A stretch of DNA of 64,000 nt from Mucilaginibacter sp. Its GTDB lineage: Bacteria > Bacteroidota > Bacteroidia > Sphingobacteriales > Sphingobacteriaceae. A program made the position numbers and the translations under genes. The DNA lies in the NCBI GenBank assembly GCA_028288025.1, contig JAQBOM010000001.1, forward strand, positions 124,001 through 188,000, in the 5' to 3' direction. How positions within the stretch are numbered: position 1 is the first letter of the stretch; every line of letters starts with the position of its first letter. Under the pieces are notes generated by a model that saw only the letters and a program-made list of their open reading frames with translations, searched no databases and was not told the DNA's origin. Of this stretch, positions 16,652 through 42,933 are shown one piece after another.

Positions 16652-16669
16652 ATTATAAATTTTAATATA

Positions 16670-18199: not shown

Positions 18200-18223
18200 T
18201 TGAACTTATTGCCAGTATAATTT

Positions 18224-18258: not shown

Positions 18259-18281
18259 GTTCTATATATTTGTTTCCCGAT

Positions 18282-21578: not shown

Positions 21579-21805
21579 GAAACTGTTTAAAAACGGTATA
21601 ATTTCTTCATTGCCGTTGGCTTCAGCCAACGGAATCGGATAATTTGATTAAAATGTGGCTTTAGCCAAAATAATATGGATGTCAATTATTGCAGGAGTTT
21701 TGGCTAAAGCCAATGAGCCTCACCACTATATCCCGTTGATTGAAGTCAACGGCAATGAACTTTTACCGATAGTAAATTTACCGGCTCGTTTTTAGACAGC
21801 TTCTA
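21576..21805. repeat. Nested-palindrome mobile-type element (about 230 bp)
   Basis: Imperfect terminal inverted repeats (21576-21595 and 21787-21805) enclose a second inverted pair (21606-21623 with 21742-21759, 17 of 18 matching) and a third (21656-21669 with 21698-21712). Short hairpins such as CCGTTGGCT/AGCCAACGG lie inside. It carries no coding frame. The left end supplies the stop codon region of the FG-GAP gene. This is the structure of a MITE- or REP-type element. Confidence 0.75.
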
Positions 21806-21815
21806 AGAAGTTTAA

Positions 21816-22766: not shown

Positions 22767-23016
22767 GGTTTACAGGTTAATCAGGTCGTAAATCTAAATA
22801 AAAAAATACTGTCAGGTTTATTGTCGGTCATATTTATAAGGTTTTTGTATGAAGAAAAAATTGGCTTTTTAAGCGCAAAAACCTTGTCCGCCTCATTATT
22901 ATTCAATACATTTATCAATCAATTATAAGCCGAAATAAAGCAGTGTGAAATTTGGGCAAAGGTGAAACTTTATATTTTCGTCAAACACCCGAATACCCCG
23001 AAAGAATTTAAATTGA

Positions 23017-26000: not shown

Positions 26001-26331
26001 CGGCGGCAATTTTGAATTTAAGGCGTTGCCGGCATCCGCGCAGGTTTCGCCGCTTTTCGGTTTTGCTGCCTTTTCGGGAAAAAATAAGGGACTATTGGCC
26101 GGGGGGAATTTTTCGGGCGTGTTGCCTTATGAAGGCCGGTACGATGCGGATTTCGGCGATGTGCTGATTTTGGATAAAGGAAGAAATTTTAAGGCGCTGT
26201 CGCCTGTTTCTGCCGGATTTTTACTGCGGGGAGAAGTGCGGGATATTAAAGCGATAAAAACGGCGAAGGGAATTATTTATGCCGTCGCGTTTAACAATAA
26301 GCAAATTGAATTTTATAAATCAACAAACTGA
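23017..26331 (+). CDS. FG-GAP/VCBS repeat lipoprotein with ASPIC-UnbV domain (copy 2)
   Basis: 1104 residues with a probable lipid attachment Cys (GMYSSSCKKK). It has the same order of modules as the gene at 18282: FG-GAP repeats (IGDINNDGLPDIYF, ADVNNDGYLDIYV), then ASPIC-UnbV (TRGFQSSVEPKLHFGLNG), then more FG-GAP repeats (ADVNHDGLDDFYI) and a terminal propeller. The two proteins align along their whole length and clearly arose by duplication. The next gene starts 3 nt after the stop, so it shares a transcript with the GH65 enzyme. Likely role: surface binding or assembly of the degradation machinery. Confidence 0.87.
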   Translation: MRIRDKSGCKRLAFYKFFLLLVITGMYSSSCKKKAPEPVMFQLLDSLQTNISFTNTISDNDPPGILNYLYFYNGGGVSIGDINNDGLPDIYFTSNKKGGNKLYLNKGNYKFEDITQKAGVAGIADWCTGATMADVNNDGYLDIYVCAVAGKLGLQGHNMLYINNHDGTFTEKSAEYGLDFSGYSTQAAFFDYNHDGKLDCFLMNQSHHSVDTYGDTSFRRKVNKQAGSKLYLNNNGHFVDVTLKSGIYSSALGYGLGLAIGDLNNDGWEDIYVGNDFHENDYYYINNHDGTFTEAGAKHFNHYSRFSMGNDMADFNNDGQLDIVTADMLPADESILKTYIGDESYDQYKQKILHGGFQYQYSRNCLQKNLGNGEAFTEVGLMDGIAATDWSWSPLLADFDDDGIKDLFIANGIKRRPTDMDYISFISSISVQGALMGGGMDNIALDKMPVGDAHSYIFKGTKSEKFIDESALWGIRDSMLSNGAAYADLNNSGHLDLVTNNLNHVACIYKNLSKDKHSLTLKFTGRQDNRFGIGAKAYVFCGKQMQYEQLMLTRGFQSSVEPKLHFGLNGQSKIDSLLIVWPNQAYQVIRNVKGDAQLAIDQKNAAGQFVYNRFFPTVAPALKNITGEMKLTWKHQEDDFVDFNQQPLIPHMLSAEGPRIAVADVNHDGLDDFYICGGRHQPGALFIQTPDGHFKATVQPDFIKDADSEGVDAVFLDVNQDGNPDLYVVSGGNELPDGSDALADHLYINDGKGHFTRSNDIPAIKRNKSAAAVADINHDGYPDIFVGGAPDAFAFGNIPESYLLMNDGHGHYHQATIPDELKYAGMLRSAAFADLDNDGWPDLVVAGEWMPVKIFMNKKGKFAPLHNAGMDKLSGWWQRIMLADVDGDGKMDIVAGNYGLNSKLRPAADNPVKLFLSDIDKNGTVDPIMTYSINHKDYTFLGKGDIEKQVPLIKKKFLYYHDFAGKTVNQIFGDSLSSKPLLANSFSSGVFYNNGGGNFEFKALPASAQVSPLFGFAAFSGKNKGLLAGGNFSGVLPYEGRYDADFGDVLILDKGRNFKALSPVSAGFLLRGEVRDIKAIKTAKGIIYAVAFNNKQIEFYKSTN

Positions 26332-26333
26332 GT

Positions 26334-28367
26334 ATGAATAAGCTATATACATTGTTGTCGGGATTGGTATTGCTTTGCTCAACCCGGGCCGGGGCGCAGG
26401 ATCAATGGGTAATAAAGGCTGATAAAATTGATCCGGCCAATTATTATGGCGTCACAGTGGCCAACGGGATGATCGGTATTGTATCATCGCCCGAGCCGTT
26501 TAAAGTAAAAAACGTGGTGCTGGCCGGCGCTTATGATCTGTATGGCCGGGGGCGGGTAAGCAATTTCCTAAATAGCTTCAACCTGCTCAATATGTACCTG
26601 GAGATAAACGGCAGGCGGATCGATGCCAAAAACATCACCAATTTCAGGCAGGAATTGGATATGCAGCACGCTGCCCTTACAACCACTTTTGATTATGGTA
26701 CCGAAGCGTCGGTAAAATATACCTACTATTCTTTGCGGCAACTGCCTTTTACTGTGTTAATGGACATTTCCATAACCGCTAAAAAAGCTATAAATATTAC
26801 GGCGGCCAGTGTTATGGAAGCACCAGACGCCTTAAAGGAAGTTCAGAATTATTATAATGAGATTGACAGGCCGCACGTAACCATCAGCTTGTTAACATCA
26901 ACGGCAAAAAGCCCTACCGGCAAGCTGCAGCTATGCGCGTCGAACACATTTTTGTTTAATGAGCCGCATACGCAGGAGCCGCGTGTGATACACGAAATGT
27001 GGGACAATAATATGCACCTGATGAAATTCAGCAAGGCTATTGGTGCCGGGCAAACATATCGGTATGCGGTTGCCGGCTCATCCATAACATCGGCGCATGA
27101 TGCTGATCCGCTTAACCAGGCCGAGCGTTTAACCATGTTTGCCAAACTGGAGGGGCGCGACCGCCTGATCAAATACCACGAACAGGCCTGGGACGAGCTC
27201 TGGAAAAGCGATATAAAAATCGAAGGCGACCCGCAGGCACAGCAGGATGTGCACAGTATGTTATATCATTTATATTCCTTCTCTCGTGCCGGAACAGCAT
27301 ACTCGCCCTCGCCGATGGGGCTATCCGGGCTCGGGTATAACGGCCACGTTTTTTGGGATGCAGATCTGTGGATGTTTCCCGGCGTATTGGTACTGCACCC
27401 CGAAATTGCCAGATCAATGGTTGAATACCGCTTTCAGCGGTTGGGCATGGCAAAGCAAAATGCTTTTTCACACGGGTATAAAGGGGCCATGTTCCCTTGG
27501 GAAAGTGCCGACAGCGGGGTAGAGGAAACACCGGTATGGGCATTAAGCGGCCCGTTTGAGCATCATATCACCGCCTGCGTGGCACTTGCCGCGTGGGATT
27601 ATTATTGCGTAACACAGGATAAACAATGGCTGCTCGAAAAAGGCTGGCCGATACTTTCTGCAACAGCCGATTTTTGGGCCAGCCGGGTTGAACGTAATGG
27701 CCCGGGCCATTATGATATCAAAGATGTGGTTGCTGCTGATGAATGGGCCGAAAATGTTGATAACGATGCCTTTACTAATGCAGCGGCCAAAGCCAATTTG
27801 CAGTTTGCTGCTGCCGCCGCTGATATCTTAGGATTTAAAGCTGATCCCGACTGGCAGGTTGTTGCACAGAATATTCCCATATTAAAACTGCCCGACGGCA
27901 CGACCAGGGAGTTTGCATCCTATAACGGCGAAGGCATAAAACAGGCTGATGTGAATTTGCTTGCTTATCCGCTAAAGACAATAACCGATCCGTCTCAAAT
28001 AAAAAAGGACCTTGAATATTATGAAAAGCGTGTGCCGAATGAAGGTACGCCTGCTATGACGCAAGCGATATTTACGCTATTGTATTCGCGGTTAGGGAAT
28101 GGCGAAAAGGCCTATCATTTTTTTAAAGATGCCTACGAGCCAAATTTAAACCCGCCATTCAGGGTAATAGCAGAAACAAAGGGCGGTACAAATCCGTATT
28201 TCGCTACCGGCGCCGGCGGGATTGTTCAAAGCCTGCTGATGGGCTTTGGCGGATTGGATATCACGCCAAACGGCATCATCCAGGTCAGCAGTAAATTGCC
28301 GGCCCATTGGAAATCACTAACCATAACCGGGGTTGGCCCCGATAAAAAAACTTATATTGTTAAATAA
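26334..28367 (+). CDS. GH65 family glycoside hydrolase, probable alpha-glucosidase
   Basis: 677 residues with a signal peptide (to about GAQDQ). The GH65 (alpha/alpha)6 barrel is shown by GHVFWDADLWMFPGVLVLHP and by AADEWAENVDNDAFTN, in which E470 is the expected general acid. A second glutamate, E614 (in VIAETKGGTNPYFATGAGG), is placed as the general base of hydrolytic GH65 enzymes. As I recall, the characterised Flavobacterium alpha-1,2-glucosidase has these residues two positions later, in a protein of nearly equal length. This favours a hydrolase acting on kojibiose-type or other alpha-glucosides over a phosphorylase. The signal peptide also argues against a cytosolic phosphorylase. Confidence 0.85.
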   Translation: MNKLYTLLSGLVLLCSTRAGAQDQWVIKADKIDPANYYGVTVANGMIGIVSSPEPFKVKNVVLAGAYDLYGRGRVSNFLNSFNLLNMYLEINGRRIDAKNITNFRQELDMQHAALTTTFDYGTEASVKYTYYSLRQLPFTVLMDISITAKKAINITAASVMEAPDALKEVQNYYNEIDRPHVTISLLTSTAKSPTGKLQLCASNTFLFNEPHTQEPRVIHEMWDNNMHLMKFSKAIGAGQTYRYAVAGSSITSAHDADPLNQAERLTMFAKLEGRDRLIKYHEQAWDELWKSDIKIEGDPQAQQDVHSMLYHLYSFSRAGTAYSPSPMGLSGLGYNGHVFWDADLWMFPGVLVLHPEIARSMVEYRFQRLGMAKQNAFSHGYKGAMFPWESADSGVEETPVWALSGPFEHHITACVALAAWDYYCVTQDKQWLLEKGWPILSATADFWASRVERNGPGHYDIKDVVAADEWAENVDNDAFTNAAAKANLQFAAAAADILGFKADPDWQVVAQNIPILKLPDGTTREFASYNGEGIKQADVNLLAYPLKTITDPSQIKKDLEYYEKRVPNEGTPAMTQAIFTLLYSRLGNGEKAYHFFKDAYEPNLNPPFRVIAETKGGTNPYFATGAGGIVQSLLMGFGGLDITPNGIIQVSSKLPAHWKSLTITGVGPDKKTYIVK

Positions 28368-28383
28368 AACCGATTATAAACTT

Positions 28384-29706
28384 ATGAAGCCGCTTTTTTT
28401 CGTATTAACTTTAGCCTGCATGATTTTCAATTCGTGCAAAAAAGCCGATTACAAAAATATTTTGCATGATCCCGGCTTATACAGCCGTACCGTTCACGAA
28501 CTGAATGGTGTGGTAATGGGCAATAACTTTACACCGGTTGTGGCATCGCGTAACTATGCTTATGCCACTATTGCGGGATACGAGGCGATTGCCGGGGGTT
28601 ACCCCAAACAATATCGTTCACTTGCCGGGCAGCTTACCGGCCTCAAGGAGGTAGCTAAACCTTCGCCCAATGAAAAGATCGATTATGAATATGCCGCGTT
28701 ACTGGCATTTTGCCGGGTGGGCGAAACGGTAACTTTTCCGGAAGGAAGTTTAAAGCTTTACACCGATAGCCTGCATCAGCTGGCCGTTATACACGGCATG
28801 CCCGGCGAAATGATAAGGGCCTCCGAAAGTTATGCAAAAGCGGTTGCCGGATCAATTATAGCCTGGAGTAAAAAAGACAATTATCTTAAAACCAGGAGCG
28901 GTTCTAAATTTGCCATAAACGACTCTGCCGGGCGATGGGTACCAACACCGCCTGCTTATACCGAGGCCGTTGAACCGCACTGGAGCGAAATACGACCGAT
29001 GGTGATTAATACAAAAGATTTTCGCGTGCCGCCACCGCCTGCATTTGATATAAAAAACAAGGACAGTAAGTATTATAAAGAAGTAATTTATATAAAGAAT
29101 AAGGTAGATAGTTTAAATGCGGAGCAAACCCATATTGCCGATTTTTGGGACGACAACCCGGGAAAGCTCAATGTATCCGGCCATGTTATGTTTATTACCA
29201 AAAAGTTTTCGCCGCCCGGGCATTGGATGAGCATAGTGGGCATTGGCGCCGAAAAAACAAAGGCTGATTTTAACACCACGGTGTACGCCTTCGCTAAAAC
29301 AGCTATAGCGTTATATGATGCCTTTATTCAATGCTGGCAAATTAAGTACTATTACAAAACTGTGCGCCCGGAAACGGTGATTGACAAATATTTCGATGCC
29401 AATTGGCGGCCGCACCTGCAAACACCACCCTTCCCCGAATATACCTGCGGGCATTGTACCATATCGGCCGCGGCGGCTGAAGCGCTTACCAGCGTATTCG
29501 GCGACAACGTTGCATATACCGACACTTCGGAAGTGGAATTTGGTATAAAGAGCCGTTCTTATAAGTCGTTCAGGGCGGCAGCTGATGAAAATGTTTGGGC
29601 CAGGTTTTATGGCGGAATACATTTTTATAACTCCTGTATCGTATCACACGGGATCGGTAAGGAAGTAGGTGGATCTGTCGTGGCGAAATTGCAAATGAAA
29701 AGGTAA
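28384..29706 (+). CDS. Vanadium-dependent haloperoxidase / PAP2-like lipoprotein
   Basis: 440 residues from the ATG at 28384, which gives a lipoprotein signal (FNSCKKAD, C18). The second half carries the PAP2/vanadium-haloperoxidase helices: YYKTVRPETVID (the K..RP motif), FPEYTCGHCTIS with C355-G-H357 where S-G-H is usual, and ARFYGGIHF followed by GIGKEVGG (the R..G..H motif). Enzymes of this superfamily bind vanadate or phosphate and act as halide oxidases or phosphatases. The substrate is not predictable. Homologues often lie next to FG-GAP/ASPIC genes, as here. Confidence 0.82.
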   Translation: MKPLFFVLTLACMIFNSCKKADYKNILHDPGLYSRTVHELNGVVMGNNFTPVVASRNYAYATIAGYEAIAGGYPKQYRSLAGQLTGLKEVAKPSPNEKIDYEYAALLAFCRVGETVTFPEGSLKLYTDSLHQLAVIHGMPGEMIRASESYAKAVAGSIIAWSKKDNYLKTRSGSKFAINDSAGRWVPTPPAYTEAVEPHWSEIRPMVINTKDFRVPPPPAFDIKNKDSKYYKEVIYIKNKVDSLNAEQTHIADFWDDNPGKLNVSGHVMFITKKFSPPGHWMSIVGIGAEKTKADFNTTVYAFAKTAIALYDAFIQCWQIKYYYKTVRPETVIDKYFDANWRPHLQTPPFPEYTCGHCTISAAAAEALTSVFGDNVAYTDTSEVEFGIKSRSYKSFRAAADENVWARFYGGIHFYNSCIVSHGIGKEVGGSVVAKLQMKR

Positions 29707-29913
29707 ATAATAGTTATAATTTTTATCAACTAATTTTTTATAAACGTCTGATTAACAACGGTATAGTTTGTAAAATGATATTTTTATTTTAAATTTTTAT
29801 TATATAAAAATCATGGGTGTTAAAACGGAGATTAACCTTATTATCCTATCAGTATATTTATATCTAATTCGGGTGGTAATCATTCGATTGAGTAATACAA
29901 TTGGTTTAGTTGT

Positions 29914-29942
29914 AAAGTAGCCGGCTTCCGGCTACTTTTTTT
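29914..29942 (+). terminator. Rho-independent terminator before the GH130 gene
   Basis: An 11-bp perfect stem (AAAGTAGCCGG / CCGGCTACTTT) with loop CTT is followed by seven T residues. It separates the haloperoxidase gene from the GH130 gene. Confidence 0.85.
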
Positions 29943-29964
29943 GTTTAAATTCATTCGTGTCCAT

Positions 29965-31134
29965 ATGCGCCATTCTTTTTTATTTTCGATACTAATTTTA
30001 TTGACGGCAGCCGGTTGCAATACCAAACCAACAGCTTTCACTAAGCCGCTTGCTGATTCATCTGCAGACTGGGCGCTGCTGCCGTTTGTAAAAATCGATA
30101 GCGTTAACCCGATTTTGGGCCCTGGCCAGGGAAGTTTTATCGATCCTATATTAAAGGAGAAGGTTTTGTGGGAAGAAAAGGACGTATTTAACCCCGCCAT
30201 CGTAAACCGCAATGGTAAAATATACATGCTTTATCGTGCCCAGGATAAAACCGGCAAACCTTCGGGCACGTCGCGCATTGGGTTAGCGGTCAGTTCCGAC
30301 GCGATGCATTTTACCCGCATGCCGCGGCCGGTGTTTTACCCGGCAAATGATACGTATAAAAAGCTGGAATGGACTGGCGGCTGCGAAGACCCGCGTATTG
30401 TTGAAGACAGTGCCGGAACATATTATATGACCTATACGGCATACGATGGCGTTACTGCCCGCCTGCTTGTAGCCACGTCCACAGACTTGCAGCATTGGAA
30501 AAAACACGGTAGCGTATTTGCAAAAGCTTACGGTGGTAAATACGCCGTCAAATGGAGTAAATCCGGTTCTATCGTTTCGACTTACAACAAGGATGGTAAA
30601 GTTGTCGCCGCAAAAATTAACGGCAAATATTGGATGTACTGGGGCGATACACAAATATGGTGTGCCCAATCGGATGATCTGATCAATTGGACGCCTGTCG
30701 AGATGAATACAGGCGAGCATCCACCGGTTAAGCTGCGTTCACAGGCATTAAACATGCCGCTGTTAAAAATTGCCTTGCCCACCCGTGCCGGGAAATTTGA
30801 CAGTGACCTTGTTGAATCGGGACCGCCGGCCATGTTAACCGATGAGGGAATTTTGCTCATCTATAACAGCCGTAACGACCATTCCTTCGGGGACAAGAAT
30901 CTGGCTGACGGAACCTATGCTGCAGCGGAGGTTCTGTTTGATAAAACGAACCCTTTGAGAATACTGAAACGTATGGACACCTGGTTCATTAAGCCCGAAA
31001 AATCTTACGAGATATCCGGCCAGGTTAACCAGGTATGTTTTGTGGAAGGGCTTACCGCATTTAAAGGCAAATGGTTTTTGTATTACGGCACGGCCGATTC
31101 AAAAATTGCAGTCGCCGAAAAGTCTGTAAAATAA
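29965..31134 (+). CDS. GH130-like glycosidase/phosphorylase lipoprotein
   Basis: 389 residues, lipoprotein with C18 (LTAAGCNTK). The start at 29965 is used because the earlier TTG falls in the terminator tail. The five-bladed propeller of GH130 is shown by VFNPAIVNRNGKIYMLYRAQD, by WTGGCEDPRIVED in which D142 is the expected catalytic Asp, and by VESGPPAMLTDEGILLIYNS. Surface lipoproteins of GH130 are more often beta-mannosidases than phosphorylases, but the phosphate-binding residues were not checked. It belongs to the same glycan locus by position. Confidence 0.82.
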   Translation: MRHSFLFSILILLTAAGCNTKPTAFTKPLADSSADWALLPFVKIDSVNPILGPGQGSFIDPILKEKVLWEEKDVFNPAIVNRNGKIYMLYRAQDKTGKPSGTSRIGLAVSSDAMHFTRMPRPVFYPANDTYKKLEWTGGCEDPRIVEDSAGTYYMTYTAYDGVTARLLVATSTDLQHWKKHGSVFAKAYGGKYAVKWSKSGSIVSTYNKDGKVVAAKINGKYWMYWGDTQIWCAQSDDLINWTPVEMNTGEHPPVKLRSQALNMPLLKIALPTRAGKFDSDLVESGPPAMLTDEGILLIYNSRNDHSFGDKNLADGTYAAAEVLFDKTNPLRILKRMDTWFIKPEKSYEISGQVNQVCFVEGLTAFKGKWFLYYGTADSKIAVAEKSVK

Positions 31135-31794: not shown

Positions 31795-33384
31795 ATGACT
31801 GAAAAAGATAACGCTACGCGGGTATTGATCCGCTTTATAGCCGAACTGGCTGTCCCCGTTACCCGCCAGAGTATTAGTGACGAGCTACAAAAGCATCCTG
31901 ATTATTACAGTCTGCTCGCTTTTAGCGATGTGCTCAACAATTACCAGGTGTCTACCTCGGCTTATAGGCTCACGTTTGACCAATTACCCAAAGTTCCGCT
32001 GCCATTTATAACATACCTAAGCAATAAAAATTACGCAGTAGTTACCCGGCTGGATGAGAAACAGGTAACCCTGTCCAATGATCGTTGGAACAACAAGATA
32101 CTACCCTTAGCTGAATTTAAAAACCAATATGGCGGTGCGGTATTGGTAGCAGAAAAGCAGGCAAACGCTGGCGAAGCTGATTATGCCATCAAACATCGTA
32201 AAGAACTGATAAATCGTTGGCTAATGCGCCTTGCATTTGCCGGCCTGGCTGTTATACTTATTGCGTTTTTTCTTGCAAATACATCCTATTTAAACACTAT
32301 TAACCTGCAAATAGGTTTGTTAACCTTATTCAAAACAACAGGGCTTGCAACATCTGTATTGCTGTTGGTGCAAAGTATTGACGCCAATAACCCCTTGATA
32401 CAAAAACTATGTGGGGGTGATAATAATGGAGATTGTAATGCAATCCTATCTTCAAAAGCCGCCAAAATAGGGGGCATTAGCTGGTCCGAGATCGGCTTTT
32501 TTTATTTCGCCGGTACTTGGCTGGTTTTATTGCTAAACAGTGATCACCCGGCATTAATGCAGGCATTGGCGGTGCTTAATCTCATAACCCTGCCATATAC
32601 CATTTATTCTATTCATTACCAGTGGCGCATAGCCAAACAATGGTGTACGCTCTGCTGCACGGTGCAAGCAATACTCTGGCTGGAGTTTTTTGCTTTCTTG
32701 CGTTATTTGTTAACCAGGACGCAGATGCCCCATTTAACCGAATGGGGTAGCTTAATAATGGGTATGATGCTACCTGTTTTTTTATGGATAATAAGCAAGC
32801 CCTATTTTTTGCAGCTTACTAAGGTTTCGCCGCTTATCGAACAGTTGCGTAAGTTTAAATACAATAAGGAACTATTTGATGCCGCATTAAAAGTACAACC
32901 GAAATACGCTGTACCTGCTCATGAGTGGAGCATTGTGTTAGGCAATTTAGAAGCAAGCAATGTTATTACGATGGTGAGCAACCCTTATTGCCAGCCTTGT
33001 GCTAAAGTCCATTCGCAATTAGACGAAGCATTAGACAAGATGGATGATATGCAGGTCCGTGTGGTTTTCGTCGGTAAGAATAACAGCGATGAAAACGATG
33101 AAAACGGCTTGGTACACCGCCACCTGATGGCGTTGAATGAATTACCCGACAAAACTATTGTTAAAAATGCCCTGCACGATTGGTATGAGCAAAAACAAAA
33201 AAGTTATGAAGTTTGGGCAAAAAAATACCCCATAGTCTTTAACCCGTCCACATATTATAAGCTGGACAAACAGAAAGCTTGGGTTGAACTGGCCGAAATA
33301 ACGGCAACCCCCACGTTGCTGATTAACGGTCACCGTTTACCACAAAATTACCAGTTGCACGAATTAAAATATATGTTGGATTAA
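31795..33384 (+). CDS. C39-like / VKOR / DsbA-like fusion (disulfide-forming enzyme for exported peptide)
   Basis: 529 residues. Residues 1-125 resemble a C39-type domain, but the catalytic Cys is missing and the H and D sites read NYAVV and SND, so it is probably a non-cleaving C39-like domain. Residues about 140-320 form a membrane VKOR domain with loop cysteines C206 and C214 and redox pair C284-T-L-C287. The C-terminus is thioredoxin/DsbA-like with C399-Q-P-C402 and cis-Pro in ATPTLLING. VKOR-Trx fusions form disulfides in exported proteins using quinones. The next gene encodes a ten-cysteine peptide, its obvious client. A C39-like domain could hold the leader. Confidence 0.85.
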   Translation: MTEKDNATRVLIRFIAELAVPVTRQSISDELQKHPDYYSLLAFSDVLNNYQVSTSAYRLTFDQLPKVPLPFITYLSNKNYAVVTRLDEKQVTLSNDRWNNKILPLAEFKNQYGGAVLVAEKQANAGEADYAIKHRKELINRWLMRLAFAGLAVILIAFFLANTSYLNTINLQIGLLTLFKTTGLATSVLLLVQSIDANNPLIQKLCGGDNNGDCNAILSSKAAKIGGISWSEIGFFYFAGTWLVLLLNSDHPALMQALAVLNLITLPYTIYSIHYQWRIAKQWCTLCCTVQAILWLEFFAFLRYLLTRTQMPHLTEWGSLIMGMMLPVFLWIISKPYFLQLTKVSPLIEQLRKFKYNKELFDAALKVQPKYAVPAHEWSIVLGNLEASNVITMVSNPYCQPCAKVHSQLDEALDKMDDMQVRVVFVGKNNSDENDENGLVHRHLMALNELPDKTIVKNALHDWYEQKQKSYEVWAKKYPIVFNPSTYYKLDKQKAWVELAEITATPTLLINGHRLPQNYQLHELKYMLD

Positions 33385-33390
33385 TGCCTT

Positions 33391-33418
33391 AACAGCAAAG
33401 TTTTACCTCTTTGCTGTT
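33391..33418 (+). promoter_or_regulatory. Stem-loop between the oxidase and precursor genes
   Basis: AACAGCAAAG (33391-33400) and CTTTGCTGTT (33409-33418) form a perfect 10-bp stem with an 8-nt loop and no T tail. It may stabilise or process the mRNA, or partly separate oxidase from precursor expression. Confidence 0.5.
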
Positions 33419-33537
33419 GGTGGTGAGACGAAAGAAACTTTGGCCAAAAGTAAAAGGAGTATGCACTTTGGTAATACATGCCGCCAAAATTGCCGGGGCG
33501 TAGTTACGGTAACATATTTAAATTTACACTTATTTTT

Positions 33538-33792
33538 ATGGAAAAGTTTAAAAAGCTCAGTAGGGATGAGATGAAAAAAATCACCGGTGGAACTCCGCTT
33601 TGCTCTTGTGACGAATATACACTGTGCCAATGCAATGGTGGTCCTATTGTGTGTGTTCCAATACCAGCTCATAATGGCTGCACATCCCCCGGTCGGGCTA
33701 CAGGTGCTACCTGTATGGATTGGTGTGGTAGCCCAGGCGTTGTTTTGCCCACTTACTGTTGGATAGATGCTCAGTGTACAGTGAAGGCTTAA
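33538..33792 (+). CDS. Double-glycine leader, ten-cysteine exported peptide precursor
   Basis: 84 residues. Leader MEKFKKLSRDEMKKITGG (18 residues) matches GG-type leaders cut by C39 peptidases, with the LSRDEMKKITGG core typical of Bacteroidota precursors. The 66-residue core has ten cysteines (positions 22, 24, 30, 32, 39, 48, 59, 63, 74, 80 of the precursor), many Gly/Pro, and nothing resembling lanthipeptide Ser/Thr clustering. The Met at 33538 is preferred because it places the leader at the N-terminus. No LanB, LanM, YcaO or radical SAM enzyme is nearby, so five disulfides are the likely modification. Function (toxin, bacteriocin or signal) is unknown. Confidence 0.82.
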   Translation: MEKFKKLSRDEMKKITGGTPLCSCDEYTLCQCNGGPIVCVPIPAHNGCTSPGRATGATCMDWCGSPGVVLPTYCWIDAQCTVKA

Positions 33793-33813
33793 TATCATTG
33801 AATATCAGGTAGT

Positions 33814-33853
33814 AAAAAGCAGAACTGTTTTAAAAAGCAGTTTCTGCTTTTTT
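33814..33853 (+). terminator. Terminator after the precursor gene
   Basis: A 13-bp arm starting AAAAGCAG (33815-33827) pairs, with one bulge, with a CAGTTTCTGCTTTT arm (from 33838), followed by T residues. The exporter genes downstream therefore need their own promoter or readthrough. Confidence 0.8.
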
Positions 33854-34039
33854 GACAATAAAAGTTATGAATTGTAATTAAACTATATATTTTTTTTCGT
33901 ATAATAAGATCCGTGGATCGCGCTTTAAAAAATTCCTTTAAAACCAACATTTTGCCAATAATTGATAGTGAGACCGCCAATGATTAATAGAATCATATTA
34001 TTGCACCGCCTGCTGTACAATTTTTAACTAAATAAAGAA

Positions 34040-36217
34040 TTGAGCTTTCGCTACTACAAACAACAAGATCAAATGGACTGCGGCCCTACATGCCTGCGCA
34101 TGGTATTTCGGCATTATGGTCTTAAAATAGCCATTCAAAAACTCAGAACATTTTGTTATATAAACCGAGGCGGTGTTAATATGTTGGCACTTAGCGAGGC
34201 CGCCGAAAAACTGGGCATGCGCACAACAGGTGCTAAACTAAATATTGAACAATTGAAAGAGGTTGAACTGCCTTGTATATTGCACTGGCACCAACATCAC
34301 TTTGTAGTATTATATAAAATTAAAAAAGGCAAATACTATTTAGCAGATCCATCTGCAGGCCCTATTACCTTAACTGAAGATGTATTTAAAAAAAATTGGT
34401 ATTATTATAAAGAAGTAAGTGACGGTATTTCATTGTTGTTAAGCCCTACCCCGCAATTTTATGAGCAGGAGGATGATAAAGATAGCAAAGTATCCTGGTT
34501 AACCATATTAAGGTATTTTTATGCTTATAAAAAATTATTTATCCAATTAGCGTTCGGGTTGGGTATTGGTACGCTGTTATCATTGGTTACCCCGTTCCTT
34601 ACACAGTCAATTGTTGATATCGGTATTAACACCCACAACATCAATTTTGTTTATTTAATATTGATAGCGCAGGTTATGCTGTTCATAGGCAGTACCAGTG
34701 TAAATTTCATACGAAGCTGGATATTATTGCATATCAGTATGCGTATTAATATTTCTATCCTAACAGATTTTCTTATCAAATTGATGAAGCTGCCCGTAAG
34801 TTTTTTTGAAAGTAAAACTACCGGAGATATTATGCAGCGCATGAATGATCAGGTGGGTATAGAAAGCTTTTTAACGGGTACCACGCTCAATACCCTTTTC
34901 TCGCTCATTAATCTGGTTGTATTTACCATTGTGCTGATTTACTATAACGCTGTAATTTTTATGGTGTCGCTGGTAAGCACCTTATTGTACGCCGGCTGGA
35001 TAACGATGTTTCTAAAGCGCCGCCGCGCGCTTAACTACAAGCAGTTTGACAATAGCAGCAGCAACCAGAGTAATATTGTAGAGTTGGTGAACGGAATGAC
35101 TGAAATAAAGCTAAATAACTGCGAAAAGCAAAAGCGCTGGGGCTGGGAGCATATACAGGCTAAATTGTTTAAATATAAAATGCAAAATTTAGCTCTTAGT
35201 CAGTACCAGCAGGGCGGCAGCATGTTTATTAATCAAGCCAAGAACATATTGATTACTTTTTTAAGCGTAAAAGCCGTTATTGACGGCCAAATAACTCTGG
35301 GCGGCATGATGGCCATTCAATATATCGTTGGGCAGGTAAGCAGCCCTATTGAGCAAATGTTGGGCTTTGTACAAAGCTACCAGGATGCAAAAATAAGTTT
35401 AGAGCGCTTAAACGAGATACACCAACTGCCCGATGAAGAACCGATAGATAAATACTGGATACGTGAGTTGCCCCAAAACAAAACCATTACCCTAGAAGAT
35501 GTATCTTTTACCTATCCCGGCGCTGGCAATGAGCCGGTACTAGAGCATATCAACCTCACCATCCCGCAGGGCAAAACCACTGCTATTGTCGGCATGAGCG
35601 GCAGTGGAAAAACTACGATACTTAAGCTATTGCTTCGTTTTTATGAGCCGCAAAAAGGAGAAATGCGGATAGGGACCACCAAACTTCACCAGTTCAGCTT
35701 TAAAACCTGGCGCACTTCCTGTGGTACCGTAATGCAGGACGGCTTCATCTTTTCGAATACAATAGCCAATAACATAGCTGTTGGCGATGAATACCCCGAT
35801 GAGCAAAAACTTCAGCAAGCAATTAACGTAGCCAATATTGGTGATTTTATTGACGAGCTGCCATTTGGCCTGAATACCAAAATAGGCACTGCAGGCAGTG
35901 GCATAAGCCAAGGGCAAAGGCAGCGTCTGCTGATAGCCCGCGCGGTTTATAAAAACCCCGACTACCTGTTTTTTGATGAAGCCACCAACGCCCTTGATGC
36001 TAATAACGAACGCATCATTATGGATAACCTGAACGAGTTTTTTTCGGGAAGAACCGTTGTGGTAGTTGCACACCGGCTAAGTACGGTAAGGAATGCCGAC
36101 AATATCATCATGCTCGACAAAGGCCGCATAATAGAACAAGGCACCCACCACGAACTAACAAGCCTTCGCGGCGAATATTATAGTCTGGTTAAAAACCAAT
36201 TAGAATTAGGGATGTAG
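34040..36217 (+). CDS. Peptidase C39-containing ABC exporter (PCAT)
   Basis: 725 residues. The N-terminal C39 peptidase has C14 in QMDCGPTC, the His in HHFVVLY and the Asp in LADPSAG, so it should be active. Six membrane helices follow (about 160-440). The nucleotide-binding domain has Walker A at G518 (GMSGSGKTT), signature GISQGQRQR and Walker B YLFFDEATNALD. It cleaves GG leaders and exports the core peptide. The start is TTG at 34040: an in-frame stop lies five codons upstream, and the next Met would remove the N-terminal part of the peptidase. The HlyD gene starts 3 nt after its stop. Confidence 0.93.
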   Translation: MSFRYYKQQDQMDCGPTCLRMVFRHYGLKIAIQKLRTFCYINRGGVNMLALSEAAEKLGMRTTGAKLNIEQLKEVELPCILHWHQHHFVVLYKIKKGKYYLADPSAGPITLTEDVFKKNWYYYKEVSDGISLLLSPTPQFYEQEDDKDSKVSWLTILRYFYAYKKLFIQLAFGLGIGTLLSLVTPFLTQSIVDIGINTHNINFVYLILIAQVMLFIGSTSVNFIRSWILLHISMRINISILTDFLIKLMKLPVSFFESKTTGDIMQRMNDQVGIESFLTGTTLNTLFSLINLVVFTIVLIYYNAVIFMVSLVSTLLYAGWITMFLKRRRALNYKQFDNSSSNQSNIVELVNGMTEIKLNNCEKQKRWGWEHIQAKLFKYKMQNLALSQYQQGGSMFINQAKNILITFLSVKAVIDGQITLGGMMAIQYIVGQVSSPIEQMLGFVQSYQDAKISLERLNEIHQLPDEEPIDKYWIRELPQNKTITLEDVSFTYPGAGNEPVLEHINLTIPQGKTTAIVGMSGSGKTTILKLLLRFYEPQKGEMRIGTTKLHQFSFKTWRTSCGTVMQDGFIFSNTIANNIAVGDEYPDEQKLQQAINVANIGDFIDELPFGLNTKIGTAGSGISQGQRQRLLIARAVYKNPDYLFFDEATNALDANNERIIMDNLNEFFSGRTVVVVAHRLSTVRNADNIIMLDKGRIIEQGTHHELTSLRGEYYSLVKNQLELGM

Positions 36218-36220
36218 CAC

Positions 36221-36943
36221 ATGGAGATACAAGAAACTGAAAGGCATACTGAAGATATGCAGGAAATTATAACCAAAGTGCCGTCGTGGATATTGCGCTG
36301 GGGAATAATGTTGTTCTTTGGCATCCTGCTAATGGTGGCCGCTATTTCAGTTTTTGTACGCTATCCGGATACAATAAAATCGAGTTTAAAATTTGAATCA
36401 TCGGGTATTACTATGCCAGTTGTCAGCGCCGTTCCGGGCATAGTAGCGAATCTGTGGGTTAAACAAGGGGCCATCGTAAAAAAAGGGCAAGCATTAGCTA
36501 CCATCGAAATGAATAGTCCTAATACAAAGTATACCTTAGCCGCACCGCAGGATGGGAAGCTGGGCTTTGTGGCTATTGTTCAGCATGGCGCTTTTTTAAA
36601 AGCCAACCAGATTGTGTTTGCTATCCACCCTGTAAGGGAGCAGTTTTTTGGAATAATGGAAATGCCATCTTCCCAGATCAATAAAATTAAAATAGGCCAG
36701 CAGGTATTGATCAGTTTAAGAAATTACCCGGCAGATGAATATGGCGAACTGAAAGGCAGCGTAGACTATATAGCAGACGAACCCACTAATAATGGACTTT
36801 TTATAATTAAAGTTAATTTGAATAACGCAGGTTCAAAATACCCAGTAATACTTAAAAGTTGGACAATGGGCGATGCGGAGATTATTACACAGAATGTAAG
36901 CTTACAAAGCCGTATTTTCAAATCTGTTTTTAAGGGCCTGTAA
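36221..36943 (+). CDS. Very short HlyD-type periplasmic adaptor
   Basis: 240 residues: cytoplasmic N-terminus, one membrane helix (about 26-46), a split biotinyl-lipoyl-like domain (PGIVANLWVKQGAIVKKGQALATIE and AAPQDGKLGFVAIVQHG), then a beta-barrel region (IKIGQQVLISLRNYP). The two lipoyl halves are joined by only about ten residues, where family members of about 400 residues have a long coiled-coil hairpin. It therefore cannot reach a TolC tip in the usual way. It follows the PCAT gene by 3 nt and completes the exporter; no TolC gene belongs to this cassette. Confidence 0.85.
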   Translation: MEIQETERHTEDMQEIITKVPSWILRWGIMLFFGILLMVAAISVFVRYPDTIKSSLKFESSGITMPVVSAVPGIVANLWVKQGAIVKKGQALATIEMNSPNTKYTLAAPQDGKLGFVAIVQHGAFLKANQIVFAIHPVREQFFGIMEMPSSQINKIKIGQQVLISLRNYPADEYGELKGSVDYIADEPTNNGLFIIKVNLNNAGSKYPVILKSWTMGDAEIITQNVSLQSRIFKSVFKGL

Positions 36944-37552: not shown

Positions 37553-37936
37553 ATGAAACGCACCGCGCTCATATTATTAACGTCTGTTTATCTTTTATCC
37601 TGCCTGGGATTAGGGGTAAACCGTTTTTATTGCTGCGGGAAGCTGGCTTCGGTTACGTTTCTATACGGCGCGACTGATAATACCGGCAAGCAATCTGCCG
37701 GTAAGGATAATTGCTGCAAAAACGAAAAACAAAGTTTCAAGGTAAAGGATAGCCATGTTAATGTGGCATCACTTTCTTTGAATGCCGCTGCACCCGCGAT
37801 AGTTCCATCTTTTATTCACCTGGATAATGAGGCCATCGCCGGCTTATTGCACACTAAAATAGTTTATAAAGGGAATGCCCCGCCGGGACATTCGGATATA
37901 CCTGTCTATACCCTTAACTGTACGTACAGGATCTGA
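37553..37936 (+). CDS. HYC_CC_PP family secreted protein (metal-efflux associated)
   Basis: 127 residues with a signal peptide (MKRTALILLTSVYLLSCLG). The three family marks appear in order: FYCCG after the signal peptide, DNCCKNE in the middle and APPGHSDIPVY with a terminal NCTYRI. These small cysteine-rich proteins precede CusA-type operons in Bacteroidota. The paired cysteines could bind copper in the periplasm; this is inference. First gene of the copper/silver operon. Confidence 0.8.
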   Translation: MKRTALILLTSVYLLSCLGLGVNRFYCCGKLASVTFLYGATDNTGKQSAGKDNCCKNEKQSFKVKDSHVNVASLSLNAAAPAIVPSFIHLDNEAIAGLLHTKIVYKGNAPPGHSDIPVYTLNCTYRI

Positions 37937-38068
37937 CCTGTACTTTTCTTAGCCATACGTCCTGTACCTGGCTAGTCTATTCATTGCAATCCATCATCTT
38001 AATTTAATAATCAACGCACGGCATATTGTGTCCGGCGCTATTTATCAATTCTCAATTTTTAAAAATTC

Positions 38069-38293
38069 ATGAAAAAAGTAATGCTGATGGCGGCCGCCAT
38101 CCTGATCTCTGCCGCAACCATATTTGCTTCCGGCGTTCACCCTGTTAAAGCTGTTGCCGATACATCAAAGAAGGCAGCCGCCAAAGTTGTGTATACCTGC
38201 CCGATGCATACCGATGTGGTGAGCTACAAGCCCGGCAAATGCCCGAAATGCGGCATGACGCTGGTTAAAAAAAGCGATCTGAAAAAGAAATGA
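38069..38293 (+). CDS. Small secreted heavy-metal-binding domain protein
   Basis: 74 residues: signal peptide (to about residue 32) followed by a single heavy-metal-binding domain, YTCPMHTDVVSYKPGKCPKCGMTLV. The CPMH and CPKCGM pairs are the metal-binding cysteines, histidine and methionines of this domain. The same domain heads both CusB-like adaptors downstream, so it may hand copper or silver ions to the pump like CusF. Confidence 0.87.
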   Translation: MKKVMLMAAAILISAATIFASGVHPVKAVADTSKKAAAKVVYTCPMHTDVVSYKPGKCPKCGMTLVKKSDLKKK

Positions 38294-38306
38294 ACCAGGT
38301 AAGTCC

Positions 38307-38530
38307 TAAGTCTTAAGTCTTTAGTCCTAAGTCAGCTGCTAAGTTAGTTTGGCTTTAGACCAATGTCATTAAGTTAAGAGATTTTTATCTTTTTGCCCTC
38401 TTTATTGCGCAGCAAAAGAGAGGGCGGACGAGCGTAGCAAAGTCCGGGTGAGTTAACGGAGCGCATTCATTACCGCTGTGTTCCCCTTAACTTAATAACA
38501 TTTGACTTTTGGCTTAAGACTCAGGACTCT
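38307..38530. repeat. Inverted pair of 7-bp-periodic tracts flanking a MITE-like element
   Basis: At 38307-38338 the heptamer TAAGTCY repeats about five times. At about 38503-38530 the same kind of tract occurs in the opposite orientation (CTTAAGACTCAGGACT). The element at 38362-38502 lies between them. Confidence 0.65.
38362..38502. mobile_element. MITE-like element, 141 bp
   Basis: Terminal inverted repeats AATGTCATTAAGTTAAG (38362-38378) and its complement (38486-38502) match at 16 of 17 positions. Inside are GC-rich hairpins: GCCCTCT/AGAGGGC (38395/38419) and CGGAC/GTCCG (38425/38442). There is no coding capacity. No clear target-site duplication could be seen. Confidence 0.65.
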
Positions 38531-38546
38531 AAAAAAAACAAAAAAA

Positions 38547-39821
38547 ATGATAAATCAACTTATTTCCCTTTCATTAAAAAACCGGTACATCGTTTTGCTG
38601 ATAGCGATTGCCCTTTTTGGATGGGGCGCCTGGTCGGTAAAACAAAATCCCATCGACGCTATTCCCGACTTGTCGGATAACCAGGTCATTGTATTTACCG
38701 AATGGCAGGGCCGCAGCCCGCAGATCATGGAAGACCAGGTGACGTATCCGCTGGTAAGCAACCTGCAGGGCATCCCTAAGGTACGGGCCATCCGCGCGAC
38801 GTCCATGTTCGGGATGAGCTTTGTCTATATCGTTTTTGACGATAAGGCCGATGTGTATTGGGCACGAAGCCGGGTACTGGAAAGGCTTAGTTATGCACAG
38901 CGTTTGCTGCCGCAGGGCATTACACCAACACTCGGCCCTGATGGCACAGGCGTAGGCCATATTTTGTGGTATACGCTGGATGCAAAAGGGATTGACCTGG
39001 GTGAACAGCGCGCGTTGCAGGATTGGTATGTCAAATTAGGTTTGCAAACAGTCCCCGGCGTGAGCGAGGTGGCATCATTCGGAGGGTTTGAAAAACAGTA
39101 CCAGGTCACCGTTGATCCGCACAAACTCAATTACTACAACATCCCTTTATCGCAAGTATTAAAAGCGGTTAAAAGCAATAACAATGATGTAGGCGGCCGC
39201 AAGTTTGAAATGAATGGCACAGGGTATATCGTCCGCGGCCTGGGCTATATCAAAAGTTTAAAGGATGTAGAGAATATCCCTATTGGGGTGATTAATACCA
39301 TCCCGGTAACGATAAAAGATGTTGCTACGGTGCAAATGGGGGGTGATGAACGATTGGGCATCTTCGACCGGAACGGCACAGGCGAAGCGGTGGGCGGTAT
39401 TGTAGTGATGCGGTATGGCGAAAACGCGGACAGGGTTATTCACGCGGTTAAAGATAAAATGGCCGACATCCAAAAAGGGCTGCCTCCGGGTGTGAAATTC
39501 AATATTGCCTATGACCGCAGCGAGGTGATTGAAAATGCAGTTAATTCCGTCAAACACACGCTCATCGAAGAAATGATAACCGTGTCTATCATTGTTATCC
39601 TATTCCTGTTCAGCTGGCGAAGCGCGCTAAGCATAATTATCCAGATCCCTATTACGATAGCCGCCAGTTTTATCCTGCTCAATGCCTTTGGCATCAGCTC
39701 CAATATCATGTCTTTAACAGGTATCGCATTAGCTATCGGTGTCATCGTGGATAACGGGATCGTTATGGTAGAAAACTCGCACCGGAACTTATCCATTGCA
39801 CAACAAAAAGAAAGATCATGA
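38547..39821 (+). CDS. cusA: CusA-type RND metal efflux pump, N-terminal part
   Basis: 424 residues: TM1, first periplasmic porter region (NPIDAIPDLSDNQVIV, GHILWYTL), TM2-TM4 ending IGVIVDNGIVMVENSHRNL, then a stop. It corresponds to the first 40% of a CusA/CzcA heavy-metal pump (usually about 1040 residues as one chain). The stop TGA overlaps the ATG of the next gene (ATGA), and together they make a complete pump. The break falls in the cytoplasmic loop between TM4 and TM5. Start at 38547 is the first ATG giving the usual MINQLISLSLKNR start. Confidence 0.88.
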   Translation: MINQLISLSLKNRYIVLLIAIALFGWGAWSVKQNPIDAIPDLSDNQVIVFTEWQGRSPQIMEDQVTYPLVSNLQGIPKVRAIRATSMFGMSFVYIVFDDKADVYWARSRVLERLSYAQRLLPQGITPTLGPDGTGVGHILWYTLDAKGIDLGEQRALQDWYVKLGLQTVPGVSEVASFGGFEKQYQVTVDPHKLNYYNIPLSQVLKAVKSNNNDVGGRKFEMNGTGYIVRGLGYIKSLKDVENIPIGVINTIPVTIKDVATVQMGGDERLGIFDRNGTGEAVGGIVVMRYGENADRVIHAVKDKMADIQKGLPPGVKFNIAYDRSEVIENAVNSVKHTLIEEMITVSIIVILFLFSWRSALSIIIQIPITIAASFILLNAFGISSNIMSLTGIALAIGVIVDNGIVMVENSHRNLSIAQQKERS

Positions 39822-41710
39822 CCACGGCAGAACGAATTAAAATCATAGAAGCCTCCTGCAAACAGGTTGGCCGCGGCGTGTTCTTTTCGACGCTTATCAT
39901 TGTGGCGTCTTTCTTGCCGGTTTTTTTACTGGAAGGACAGGAAGGTAAACTATTCGGCCCGCTGGCCTGGACGAAAACCTTTATCCTGGCTATTGACGCT
40001 ATCCTCGCGGTAACGCTGGCGCCGGTGCTCATTTCCTTTTTCCTGAAAGGGAAACTGCGCACCGATGATCACAACCCTTTAAACCGCGGGCTTGAAAAAA
40101 TTTATCGCCCTGTTCTCGACTGGTGCGTAACCTGGCGTAAAGCCACTATCGGCATTAATATCATTGCCTTACTGGTTAGCGTCCCGCTCTTATTGAGCTT
40201 AGGCAGTGAGTTTATGCCGCCGCTGGATGAAGGCTCCATTTTGTTTATGCCCGTTACCATGCCGGATATTTCCAATTCGGAAGCGAAGCAATTGCTGCAG
40301 GTACAGGACAGGATCATTAAAAGCGTGCCCGAAGTTGCCAATGTGTTGGGAAAAGCGGGCCGGGCAAATACAGCTACAGATAATTCGCCTATAAGCATGG
40401 TCGAAACCATTATTCTTTTAAAGCCAACAAGTGACTGGCGCAAAGGCCTGAAAAAAGAAGATATAATTAATGAACTGAACGCCAAGCTGCAAATACCCGG
40501 CGTAGTGAACGGCTGGACACAGCCCATTATCAATCGTATCAACATGTTATCCACGGGTATCCGTACCGACGTGGGCTTAAAGGTATATGGGCAGAACCTG
40601 GATACCATTTATGCCCTGTCAAACCAAATGAAACAGGCATTGCAGGGTGTCGCGGGCGTCAAGGATTTATATGTTGATCCCATTACAGGCGGTAAATACC
40701 TGGATATACAAGTGAACAAAGATGCCATAGCCAGGTACGGCCTGAGCGTGGACAACGTGAACGAAGTGGTTGAAAGCGCGTTAGGCGGGATGAACCTGAC
40801 CTCGACCATTGAAGGACGCAGGCGTTTCAGCGTTAACCTGCGGTTTGCGCAGGATTACCGGAGCAATCTCGATGCGATCAAACGTACCCTTGTTCAAACC
40901 CCGTCTAACGGGCCTGTTCCGCTATCATCCGTCGCGGATATAAAGATCAGCGATGGCCCGGCCATGATACAGTCTGAAAATGCACTGTTACGCGGAACTG
41001 TACTATTCAATGTGCGGGACCGCGATTTGGGCAGCACGGTTCATGAAGCACAGGACAGGTTGAACATTATGGTAAAGACGCTGCCAAAAGGTTATTACGT
41101 AGAATGGAGCGGCCAGTATGAAAACCTTATCCGGGCGCAGCGCACGTTAATACTGATCCTGCCCATTGTGCTGATCATCATATTTATGTGCCTGTACTTT
41201 GCTTTTCATTCCATCCGGGAGGCATTTTTCAGCCTTATCTCTATTCCATTTGCATTGATCGGAGGCGCATATATGGTGTATTTCTTCGGTGTGCATTTAT
41301 CCGTTGCTGTGGCGGTGGGCTTTATTGCGTTATTCGGTATTGCCGTAGAGACGGGTATTGTTATGGTGATCTATCTCAATGATGCCATGCAGCAGTTGGT
41401 CGCCTTAAAAGGTAATTCCAGGGCAACAATTACCAGGGAGGATTTGCGAACTTATGTGATGAACGGAGCGGTAAAGCGTTTACGGCCAAAACTAATGACT
41501 GTTTGTGTTGCCTTGTTTGGATTAGTGCCTGTGCTATGGGCAACCGGAACAGGCAGTGATGTGATGCTGCCCATTGTGCTGCCGATGATCGGCGGCGTAT
41601 TAACTTCTTCCACGCATATTTTATTGGTAACCCCGCTCATCTTTTTGATGGTGAAGGAATATGAACTAAAGAAATACGGCAAGCTGGAAGTATTGGAGGT
41701 AAAAGAATAA
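39818..41710 (+). CDS. cusA: CusA-type RND metal efflux pump, C-terminal part
   Basis: 630 residues beginning MTTAERIKIIEASCKQVGRG, a segment that lies inside intact CusA homologues. It carries TM5-TM6, the second porter region (EGSILFMPVTMPDIS, WTQPIINRINMLSTGIRTDVG) and TM7-TM12. It lies in the -1 frame relative to the upstream part and overlaps it by 4 nt (ATGA). Either two coupled polypeptides assemble, or a single-base change broke the gene. All expected segments are present in both parts and neither shows further decay. Confidence 0.88.
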   Translation: MTTAERIKIIEASCKQVGRGVFFSTLIIVASFLPVFLLEGQEGKLFGPLAWTKTFILAIDAILAVTLAPVLISFFLKGKLRTDDHNPLNRGLEKIYRPVLDWCVTWRKATIGINIIALLVSVPLLLSLGSEFMPPLDEGSILFMPVTMPDISNSEAKQLLQVQDRIIKSVPEVANVLGKAGRANTATDNSPISMVETIILLKPTSDWRKGLKKEDIINELNAKLQIPGVVNGWTQPIINRINMLSTGIRTDVGLKVYGQNLDTIYALSNQMKQALQGVAGVKDLYVDPITGGKYLDIQVNKDAIARYGLSVDNVNEVVESALGGMNLTSTIEGRRRFSVNLRFAQDYRSNLDAIKRTLVQTPSNGPVPLSSVADIKISDGPAMIQSENALLRGTVLFNVRDRDLGSTVHEAQDRLNIMVKTLPKGYYVEWSGQYENLIRAQRTLILILPIVLIIIFMCLYFAFHSIREAFFSLISIPFALIGGAYMVYFFGVHLSVAVAVGFIALFGIAVETGIVMVIYLNDAMQQLVALKGNSRATITREDLRTYVMNGAVKRLRPKLMTVCVALFGLVPVLWATGTGSDVMLPIVLPMIGGVLTSSTHILLVTPLIFLMVKEYELKKYGKLEVLEVKE

Positions 41711-42933
41711 TGAAAAAATATCAGATTATATTAACCGGCCTGGTGTGCGCGGCAACTTTTGCAAACGCCCAGCGCCTGTCATTAGATAGTGTTATAGCCC
41801 GCGTTGCCGCGAATCCCGGGTTACGGGCGTATGATGCAAAGATGAGTGCGCAGGATGCCTATGCAACCGGCGCGAAAAGCCTGGATGCGCCAAAGATCAG
41901 CGCGGGGCAGTACCAAACCCCGTATCAGCTTAATCCAAACGGGGGGTCCTTTATGATACAGGCCGAGCAAATGTTTACCAATACGGGCAAACTCCGGGCA
42001 AAAGAGGATTATATGAAAGGATTATCCAAAGTAACTGCCGAGGATAAGAACTACCTGAAAAATCAGCTGATTGCCCAGGCGAAGCAATATTACTACGAGC
42101 GGGTGGTGATCGAAAAAAAACTGGCTTTACTTCAAAATACAAAAAGCTTACTAGAGTATATGCTGAAGGATGCCAACATCCGGCTAACGTATGGTAAGGA
42201 AAAGCTCAGCAACATCTACAAAGCCAAAGCCGAACTATATCAACTGGACAACGCCCTCGAGCAATTGAACAATGACATCAGCCAAAAAAACATCATGCTG
42301 AACACGCTGATGAACCGGGATAAGCAAACCGCATTTACGGTAGACACGAATGTCGCAGTAAAGAATTATGAGACAACCGTAACCGATACGGCCAGTCTTG
42401 CAAGTACCCGCAGTGATATAAAAGGAATTAGCCGGAACATTGATTTGCAGCAGTTAAATGCGCAAATGGAATACAGCAAACGCAAACCTGATTTTGGTTT
42501 ACAAGCGGCACACATGATTAGTTATGGCGGCTTCCCGAACCAATATGTTTTAATGGCTTCCGTCACCATACCCATTGTGCCCTGGGCTTCCAAAGAATAC
42601 AAGGCTAATCTGAAGGGTATCCGTTACGAAGTAGAAGAACTGCAGCAAAAAAAAATGGATATGCTGAACCAGGCTGCGGGTCAACTCGCAGGGTTAAGGA
42701 TTGATATGGAGAGCAAAAAGAGGCAATTGAAAAATTATAATCAAAATATTATACCGGCTTTGCAAAATGGATACAAAACGGCACTGTTGGCATATGACCA
42801 AAATACTGGCGATCTGCCATCCGTATTGAACGGAATAAAGGATTTACAAACGGCACGTATGGAAGCTTTAGACCGTTTGCAGGAATTATTAACCCTACAG
42901 GTAGCTTATGAAAAAGAAAATGAGAGGTATTAA
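41710..42933 (+). CDS. TolC family outer-membrane channel of the copper pump
   Basis: 407 residues with a signal peptide (to NAQ). Alternating long helices of an outer-membrane efflux protein are visible, including LKNQLIAQAKQYYYERVVIEKKLALL and AELYQLDNALEQLNNDISQKNI. It is shorter than CusC (about 460) but typical for Bacteroidota members of CusA operons. The ATG shares one base with the CusA stop codon, indicating coupling. It provides the exit duct for the RND pump. Confidence 0.88.
   Translation: MKKYQIILTGLVCAATFANAQRLSLDSVIARVAANPGLRAYDAKMSAQDAYATGAKSLDAPKISAGQYQTPYQLNPNGGSFMIQAEQMFTNTGKLRAKEDYMKGLSKVTAEDKNYLKNQLIAQAKQYYYERVVIEKKLALLQNTKSLLEYMLKDANIRLTYGKEKLSNIYKAKAELYQLDNALEQLNNDISQKNIMLNTLMNRDKQTAFTVDTNVAVKNYETTVTDTASLASTRSDIKGISRNIDLQQLNAQMEYSKRKPDFGLQAAHMISYGGFPNQYVLMASVTIPIVPWASKEYKANLKGIRYEVEELQQKKMDMLNQAAGQLAGLRIDMESKKRQLKNYNQNIIPALQNGYKTALLAYDQNTGDLPSVLNGIKDLQTARMEALDRLQELLTLQVAYEKENERY

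Follow-up and report, generated by a model that had tools for sequence, protein, structure and literature searches.

A predicted leader-guided disulfide-forming fusion protein beside a ten-cysteine double-glycine peptide in Mucilaginibacter

How might a Gram-negative bacterium fold a five-disulfide peptide before releasing it? Disulfides are normally formed outside the cytoplasm, and the question is raised by a four-gene cassette at 31795-36943 of the window, the 64,000-nucleotide stretch of a Mucilaginibacter sp. genome (contig JAQBOM010000001.1) analysed here. The cassette encodes a fusion of a C39-like domain, a VKOR core and a DsbA-like thioredoxin domain, a precursor peptide with a double-glycine (GG) leader, a C39 peptidase-ABC (C39-ABC) exporter, and a short HlyD-type adaptor. 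Sequence comparison establishes the genes, the ten cysteines of the precursor, the invariant redox cysteines and lost C39 active site of the fusion, the recurrence of the neighborhood, and the mostly even cysteine numbers of the associated cores. As the best explanation of the whole, we posit that five disulfides form in the precursor by leader-guided oxidation on the cytoplasmic side, before cleavage and export, and we give this reading slightly better than even odds (a probability of about 0.55).

The fusion, a predicted leader-guided oxidase of 529 residues (31795..33384; all cassette features are on the + strand), contains three Pfam domains above their cut-offs: Peptidase_C39 (residues 20-123), VKOR (176-299), and Thioredoxin_4 (379-529). 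The VKOR core (residues 164-308; 32284..32718) has the four helices, loop cysteine pair (206/214), and CXXC motif (284/287) of its family, and the DsbA/ScsC-like thioredoxin domain (residues 366-529; 32890..33381) carries a CQPC motif at 399-402. The six redox cysteines of these three sites are invariant in 180/180 fusions. The C39-like domain is still folded like a leader-bound C39 peptidase; however, its catalytic columns contain the cysteine in 0/61 and the histidine in 0/61 fusions, compared with 36/36 for each in the neighboring exporters, where C14, H87, and D103 are all present in 36/36, including the exporter of the window (725 residues, TTG start; 34040..36217). Judged by these columns, the C39-like domain of the fusion is catalytically dead, a loss that the original prediction missed while describing the three-part architecture correctly. 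The available part of one study describes a groove in C39 domains, approximately 20 Å from the active site, that holds leader residues -4, -7, and -12, and reports that dead C39-like domains recruit substrate (PMC6363468). Given that the window leader has I-4, M-7, and L-12 at these groove positions and that dead C39-like domains can recruit substrate, the dead domain of the fusion can be a docking part; by homology with the LahT-leader complex and other C39-like domains, we consider leader docking by this domain likely.

The precursor gene (84 residues; 33538-33792) encodes an 18-residue leader, MEKFKKLSRDEMKKITGG (33538..33591), with L-12, E-8, M-7, I-4, G-2, and G-1, and a 66-residue core with ten cysteines (33592..33789, the stop codon extending to 33792). 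The leader matches the NCBIfam model NF047798, "bacteriocin-like protein", with 32.5 bits against a cut-off of 23.5. Of 550 small open reading frames (ORFs; 30-170 residues, both strands of the window), the precursor is the only one that fits the leader pattern, and a search of 5.8 billion proteins, which reached only relatives sharing short exact words, returned one relative of the core, P0002, with 72% identity and all ten cysteines kept. Based on these two results, we regard the precursor as more than a chance ORF. A single further match to the core, weak and mostly to the leader, was found in 201 genomes of the family, and no solved structure was convincingly similar to the core by sequence; the core of the window thus appears to be nearly private. 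The original prediction of a ten-cysteine GG precursor between the fusion and the C39-ABC/HlyD pair is borne out by Pfam, the NF047798 match, and the 72% homolog. In line with its inference that no other modification enzyme takes part, a Pfam scan of 21 proteins of the window showed no peptide-modifying enzyme besides the fusion. Between 31134 and 37553, the four cassette genes aside, there are two ORFs of at least 100 residues, both antisense.

Is the pairing of fusion and precursor particular to this genome? The fusion is carried by 56/201 genomes of the family and 41/395 genomes of the phylum. We searched within 3 kb of each fusion, on its strand, for small ORFs whose leader is of the GG type. 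A first set comprised the 61 full-length, best-scoring of 75 fusion matches, including that of the window, the 14 weakest or partial being left out; at least one leader peptide is found near 44 of the 61 copies, and 60 of the 63 peptides are downstream of the fusion and 60 have an even number of core cysteines. In a second, named set, composed of the best 80 of 172 loci (81 fusion copies) and searched with a leader pattern widened to AG, 69/81 copies have at least one peptide, and 93 of 98 peptides are even; among those with at least three cysteines, 94 are on the strand of the fusion and one on the opposite strand. The original prediction, which would have been refuted by a lack of conserved precursors beside the fusion in relatives, survives this check. 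A C39-ABC exporter is also present in 46 of the 60 named loci longer than 15 kb. The two sets overlap and jointly give 138 unique cores, of which 132 are even (three with 2 cysteines, 20 with 4, 83 with 6, 25 with 8, and one with 10), the ten-cysteine core of the window being the extreme. For cores with at least three cysteines, the number is even in 129/133, versus 91/279 for leaderless small control ORFs, most of which are not genes.

The association extends beyond these sets. All 18 genomes with an NF047798 leader in a phylum draw also carry the fusion (41/395 overall; hypergeometric 3e-20), as do all 11 in the family draw (56/201 overall; 4e-7), related genomes not being independent in these statistics; the two phylum draws comprised 395 and 390 genomes, and six genomes were counted for the family as well as for the phylum. 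Three plasmid records opened of eight (two Parabacteroides, one Emticicia) hold four GG/AG peptides with six core cysteines each. The 24 loci of a phylum search (two also in other sets), counted without a strand or distance filter, yielded 31 cysteine-bearing pattern peptides, 29 of them even and two with 7 cysteines; three of these loci (L198, L200, and L202) have no pattern peptide with cysteine. The C-C-CC-C-C spacing of inhibitor cystine knots is found in 14/138 cores (0.6 expected from shuffles, with a maximum of 4 in 500), and comparisons of these cores by sequence, Pfam, and structure were weak; they resemble knots in their cysteine framework only. The core of the window lacks this spacing and is outside the 14.

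On which side of the membrane would the fusion act? In its structure model, with helices assigned by hydropathy as well as from the model itself, six membrane helices are seen: an extra helix, TM0 (residues ~143-161; 32221..32277), the four VKOR helices, and a linker helix leading to the thioredoxin domain. Six helices place the C39-like domain, thioredoxin domain, and redox loops together on the same side of the membrane. Lysine and arginine residues average 12.9 there versus 0.75 on the opposite side, with the same direction in 180/180 fusions, and 6.2 versus 0.7 in equal 10-residue windows, again in 180/180. The loop before the CXXC motif (L34) has more of these residues than the TM2-TM3 loop (L23) in 178/180 fusions and more than L23 and L45 combined in 139/180; among 19 VKORs of the same phylum with a short N-terminus, several of which are close relatives of each other, L34 exceeds L23 in 2/19 and the other 17 are opposite. 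Of 11 further long-N-terminus VKORs, 9 fit the charge pattern of the fusions. According to the positive-inside rule, this distribution predicts a cytoplasmic redox side; with TM0, it predicts an inverted VKOR whose leader-docking and redox domains face the cytoplasm. A further thioredoxin-domain cysteine at 497 (166/180 fusions) and a lone cysteine in the C39-like domain (67/180) hint at the same side, as a periplasmic oxidase would rather avoid them. In an ordinary orientation, the reduced core would be cut and exported, the thioredoxin domain would oxidize it on exit, and the C39-like domain would serve as a periplasmic chaperone. Ordinary VKOR-DsbA fusions do act in the periplasm, and the thioredoxin domain is similar to DsbA/ScsC proteins of that compartment; however, the charges are distributed in the opposite way in every fusion, in a pattern that just two of the 19 ordinary VKORs share, Cys 497 is widespread, and a C39-like domain in the periplasm would miss a leader cut in the cytoplasm. 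We consider this arrangement unlikely. The original prediction had seen neither that the fusion recurs widely as a module next to diverse cores with mostly even cysteine numbers nor that its charge pattern predicts an inverted topology.

In the mechanism that we favor, with oxidation on the cytoplasmic side, the dead C39 domain of the fusion would bind the precursor leader and the fusion would oxidize the core to five disulfides. We infer that electrons flow through VKOR to quinone and that TM0, the predicted inverter of the VKOR core, makes the cytoplasm-facing topology possible. The live C39 domain of the exporter would later cut the leader at the same motif, and the C39-ABC/HlyD pair would release the folded peptide. 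The original prediction, in which the cassette as a whole oxidizes and exports a five-disulfide peptide, is supported in this conditional form, with disulfide formation now assigned to the fusion and export to the C39-ABC/HlyD pair. Enzymatic modification that depends on the leader and precedes its removal, as predicted here, is characteristic of ribosomally synthesized and post-translationally modified peptides. The broader proposal, a phylum-wide cytoplasmic system in which inverted dead-C39 VKOR-DsbA proteins dock GG leaders and oxidize even-cysteine cores (4-10 cysteines, some knot-spaced) before export, is more tentative, and we place it a little short of even.

Several observations weigh against this account. 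The cytoplasm is normally reducing, the topology is drawn from the positive-inside rule and one model, and two long-N-terminus VKORs (L259 and L271) do not fit the charge pattern. In 139 leader/core pairs from relatives, position -4 is V, I, or L, -7 is mostly M or L, and -12 mostly L, residues that were partly selected by the search pattern. A pattern peptide is absent near 17/61 and 12/81 fusion copies, a laxer look at the 17 giving a cysteine-rich candidate in 7 (one with 7 cysteines), and no C39-ABC is found within ~7 kb in 14 of the 60 named loci. Cores with an odd number of cysteines account for 6/138, plus 2/31 in distant families. Leader peptides far from any fusion are even in 14/14 readable cases, so parity goes with the peptide family rather than with proximity to a fusion, and oxidation of such peptides would require the fusion to act in trans, as their distance suggests. 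No immunity gene was recognized at the locus. Finally, the available text on the bacteroidetocins, the closest known system, describes synthetic peptides that are active although made without a disulfide-forming step, and bacteroidetocin C, with an odd number of cysteines and modest activity (PMC6671954); disulfides thus need not be required for killing.

What would the product do? An antibacterial, bacteriocin-like peptide directed at related bacteria is most likely, and this is the weakest step of our account. A peptide matured as proposed could instead be a signal, a metal-binding peptide, or a structural secreted product. With a mean charge of -2.4 (-2 for the window core), the cores tend to be acidic, whereas many bacteriocins are cationic. 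However, a constant leader combined with cores that are diverse and sometimes in tandem fits conflict more readily than signaling, and the curated description of the leader family is bacteriocin-like; we therefore consider a non-antibacterial product rather unlikely.

Other features of the locus and its relatives complete the description. A stable hairpin lies directly 3' of the fusion gene (33386..33424; -18.7 kcal/mol, z -4.0) and a terminator-like hairpin with a T-run 3' of the precursor gene (33814..33852; -17.8 kcal/mol, z -3.9); given these positions, the precursor may be transcribed separately. The cassette ends with the 240-residue adaptor, identified by Pfam (36221..36943). Directly downstream (37553-45377) are genes for an HYC_CC_PP protein, a heavy-metal-binding-domain protein, an outer-membrane efflux protein, and an RND pump, the last read as two ORFs that overlap (38502-39821 and 39818-41710), along with a pair of CusB/HlyD-type adaptors that carry metal-binding domains, followed at 45603-48329 by one AMP-binding/carrier/thioesterase protein resembling nonribosomal peptide synthetases. 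Upstream (13589-31134), a SusC-like/SusD pair, an FG-GAP/ASPIC protein, and GH65 and GH130-type genes likely form a carbohydrate-use locus. The same genome has a second cassette (G000:C13:65000-80000; L057), composed of a fusion, a six-cysteine GG precursor, and a divergent C39-ABC/HlyD pair. Fusion-linked precursors with knot spacing, some in tandem, are found at L148:8666-9521, L192:2310-3052, L136, L133, L123, L195, and L156. Two Parabacteroides distasonis plasmid records have fusion copies with six-cysteine AG/GG peptides, one (L272) near genes for a LanC-family protein and glycosyltransferase-type proteins and the other (L273), where the annotation splits the fusion into two genes, near a beta-propeller gene. 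In one genus (g29), clusters of cysteine-free GG-leader peptides near the fusion (L207, L210, L211, L212, L216, and L219), with cores rich in Gly, Asp, and Asn and GKGS- or GNG-like ends, look like a different peptide family.

If a leader-docking inverted oxidase works inside the cell, it would account for the folding of a five-disulfide peptide by a Gram-negative bacterium ahead of release, and the cytoplasmic system would constitute a class of peptides distinguished by disulfide formation under the guidance of a leader. One constant enzyme acting on many variable cores would be a natural display system for disulfide-rich peptides, and many small ORFs of Mucilaginibacter, Pedobacter, Chitinophagaceae, and gut Parabacteroides would become testable predicted products.

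Individual parts of the system have known counterparts. With bacterial VKOR-DsbA fusions the window protein shares the VKOR four-helix core, loop cysteine pair, CXXC motif, and DsbA-like domain; unlike them, it has TM0, an N-terminal C39-like domain, and a predicted inversion, the positive charges that periplasmic VKOR-DsbA proteins keep away from their redox centers being on the opposite side in all 180 fusions. The C39-like domain of HlyB and the C39 domains of LahT/PCAT1 sit with an ABC transporter, whereas that of the window is fused to a redox enzyme. The NF047798 leader_Chryseo peptides share the leader, to which the 18-residue model is confined, leaving the core and enzyme outside it. 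The inverted VKOR and DsbB of CyDisCo strains, for which the cited reference is reportedly Hatahet and Ruddock 2013, resemble the fusion in their cytoplasmic redox side, predicted in our case. CyDisCo is an engineered expression tool, whereas the fusion is natural, linked to a peptide, and predicted to dock on its leader. In engineered strains, according to the part of the source available, these inverted enzymes are used to form disulfides in the cytoplasm (PMC5471842).

The bacteroidetocins (class IIf; Coyne et al. 2019) are described, in the available text, as 42-residue, four-cysteine GG peptides of Bacteroidota encoded with a thiol oxidoreductase, a five-transmembrane protein, and a C39-ABC; four genes are enough in E. 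coli, and deletion of the oxidoreductase attenuates activity (PMC6671954). Resistant mutants map to BamA, in the portion available of a second paper (PMC8546649). The general idea of a peptide-dedicated disulfide enzyme is therefore already known, contrary to the original prediction, which knew of no described Bacteroidota peptide of this kind with its own. As far as these sources describe, a GG-leader cysteine peptide, a dedicated thiol oxidoreductase with a C39-ABC exporter, and the lack of a recognized immunity gene are common to both systems, which would fit a plain class II bacteriocin cassette whose disulfide enzyme has no leader-guided or topological novelty. We consider this very unlikely, as the window core has 66 residues and ten cysteines versus ~42 and four, no gene is a candidate for the separate five-transmembrane protein (the fusion itself having six predicted membrane helices), and the enzyme is a three-domain dead-C39/VKOR/DsbA fusion accompanied by HlyD, set apart from the bacteroidetocin oxidoreductase by description only. 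Relative to the bacteroidetocins, the dead-C39 fusion, its predicted inversion, and the even-cysteine repertoire are new.
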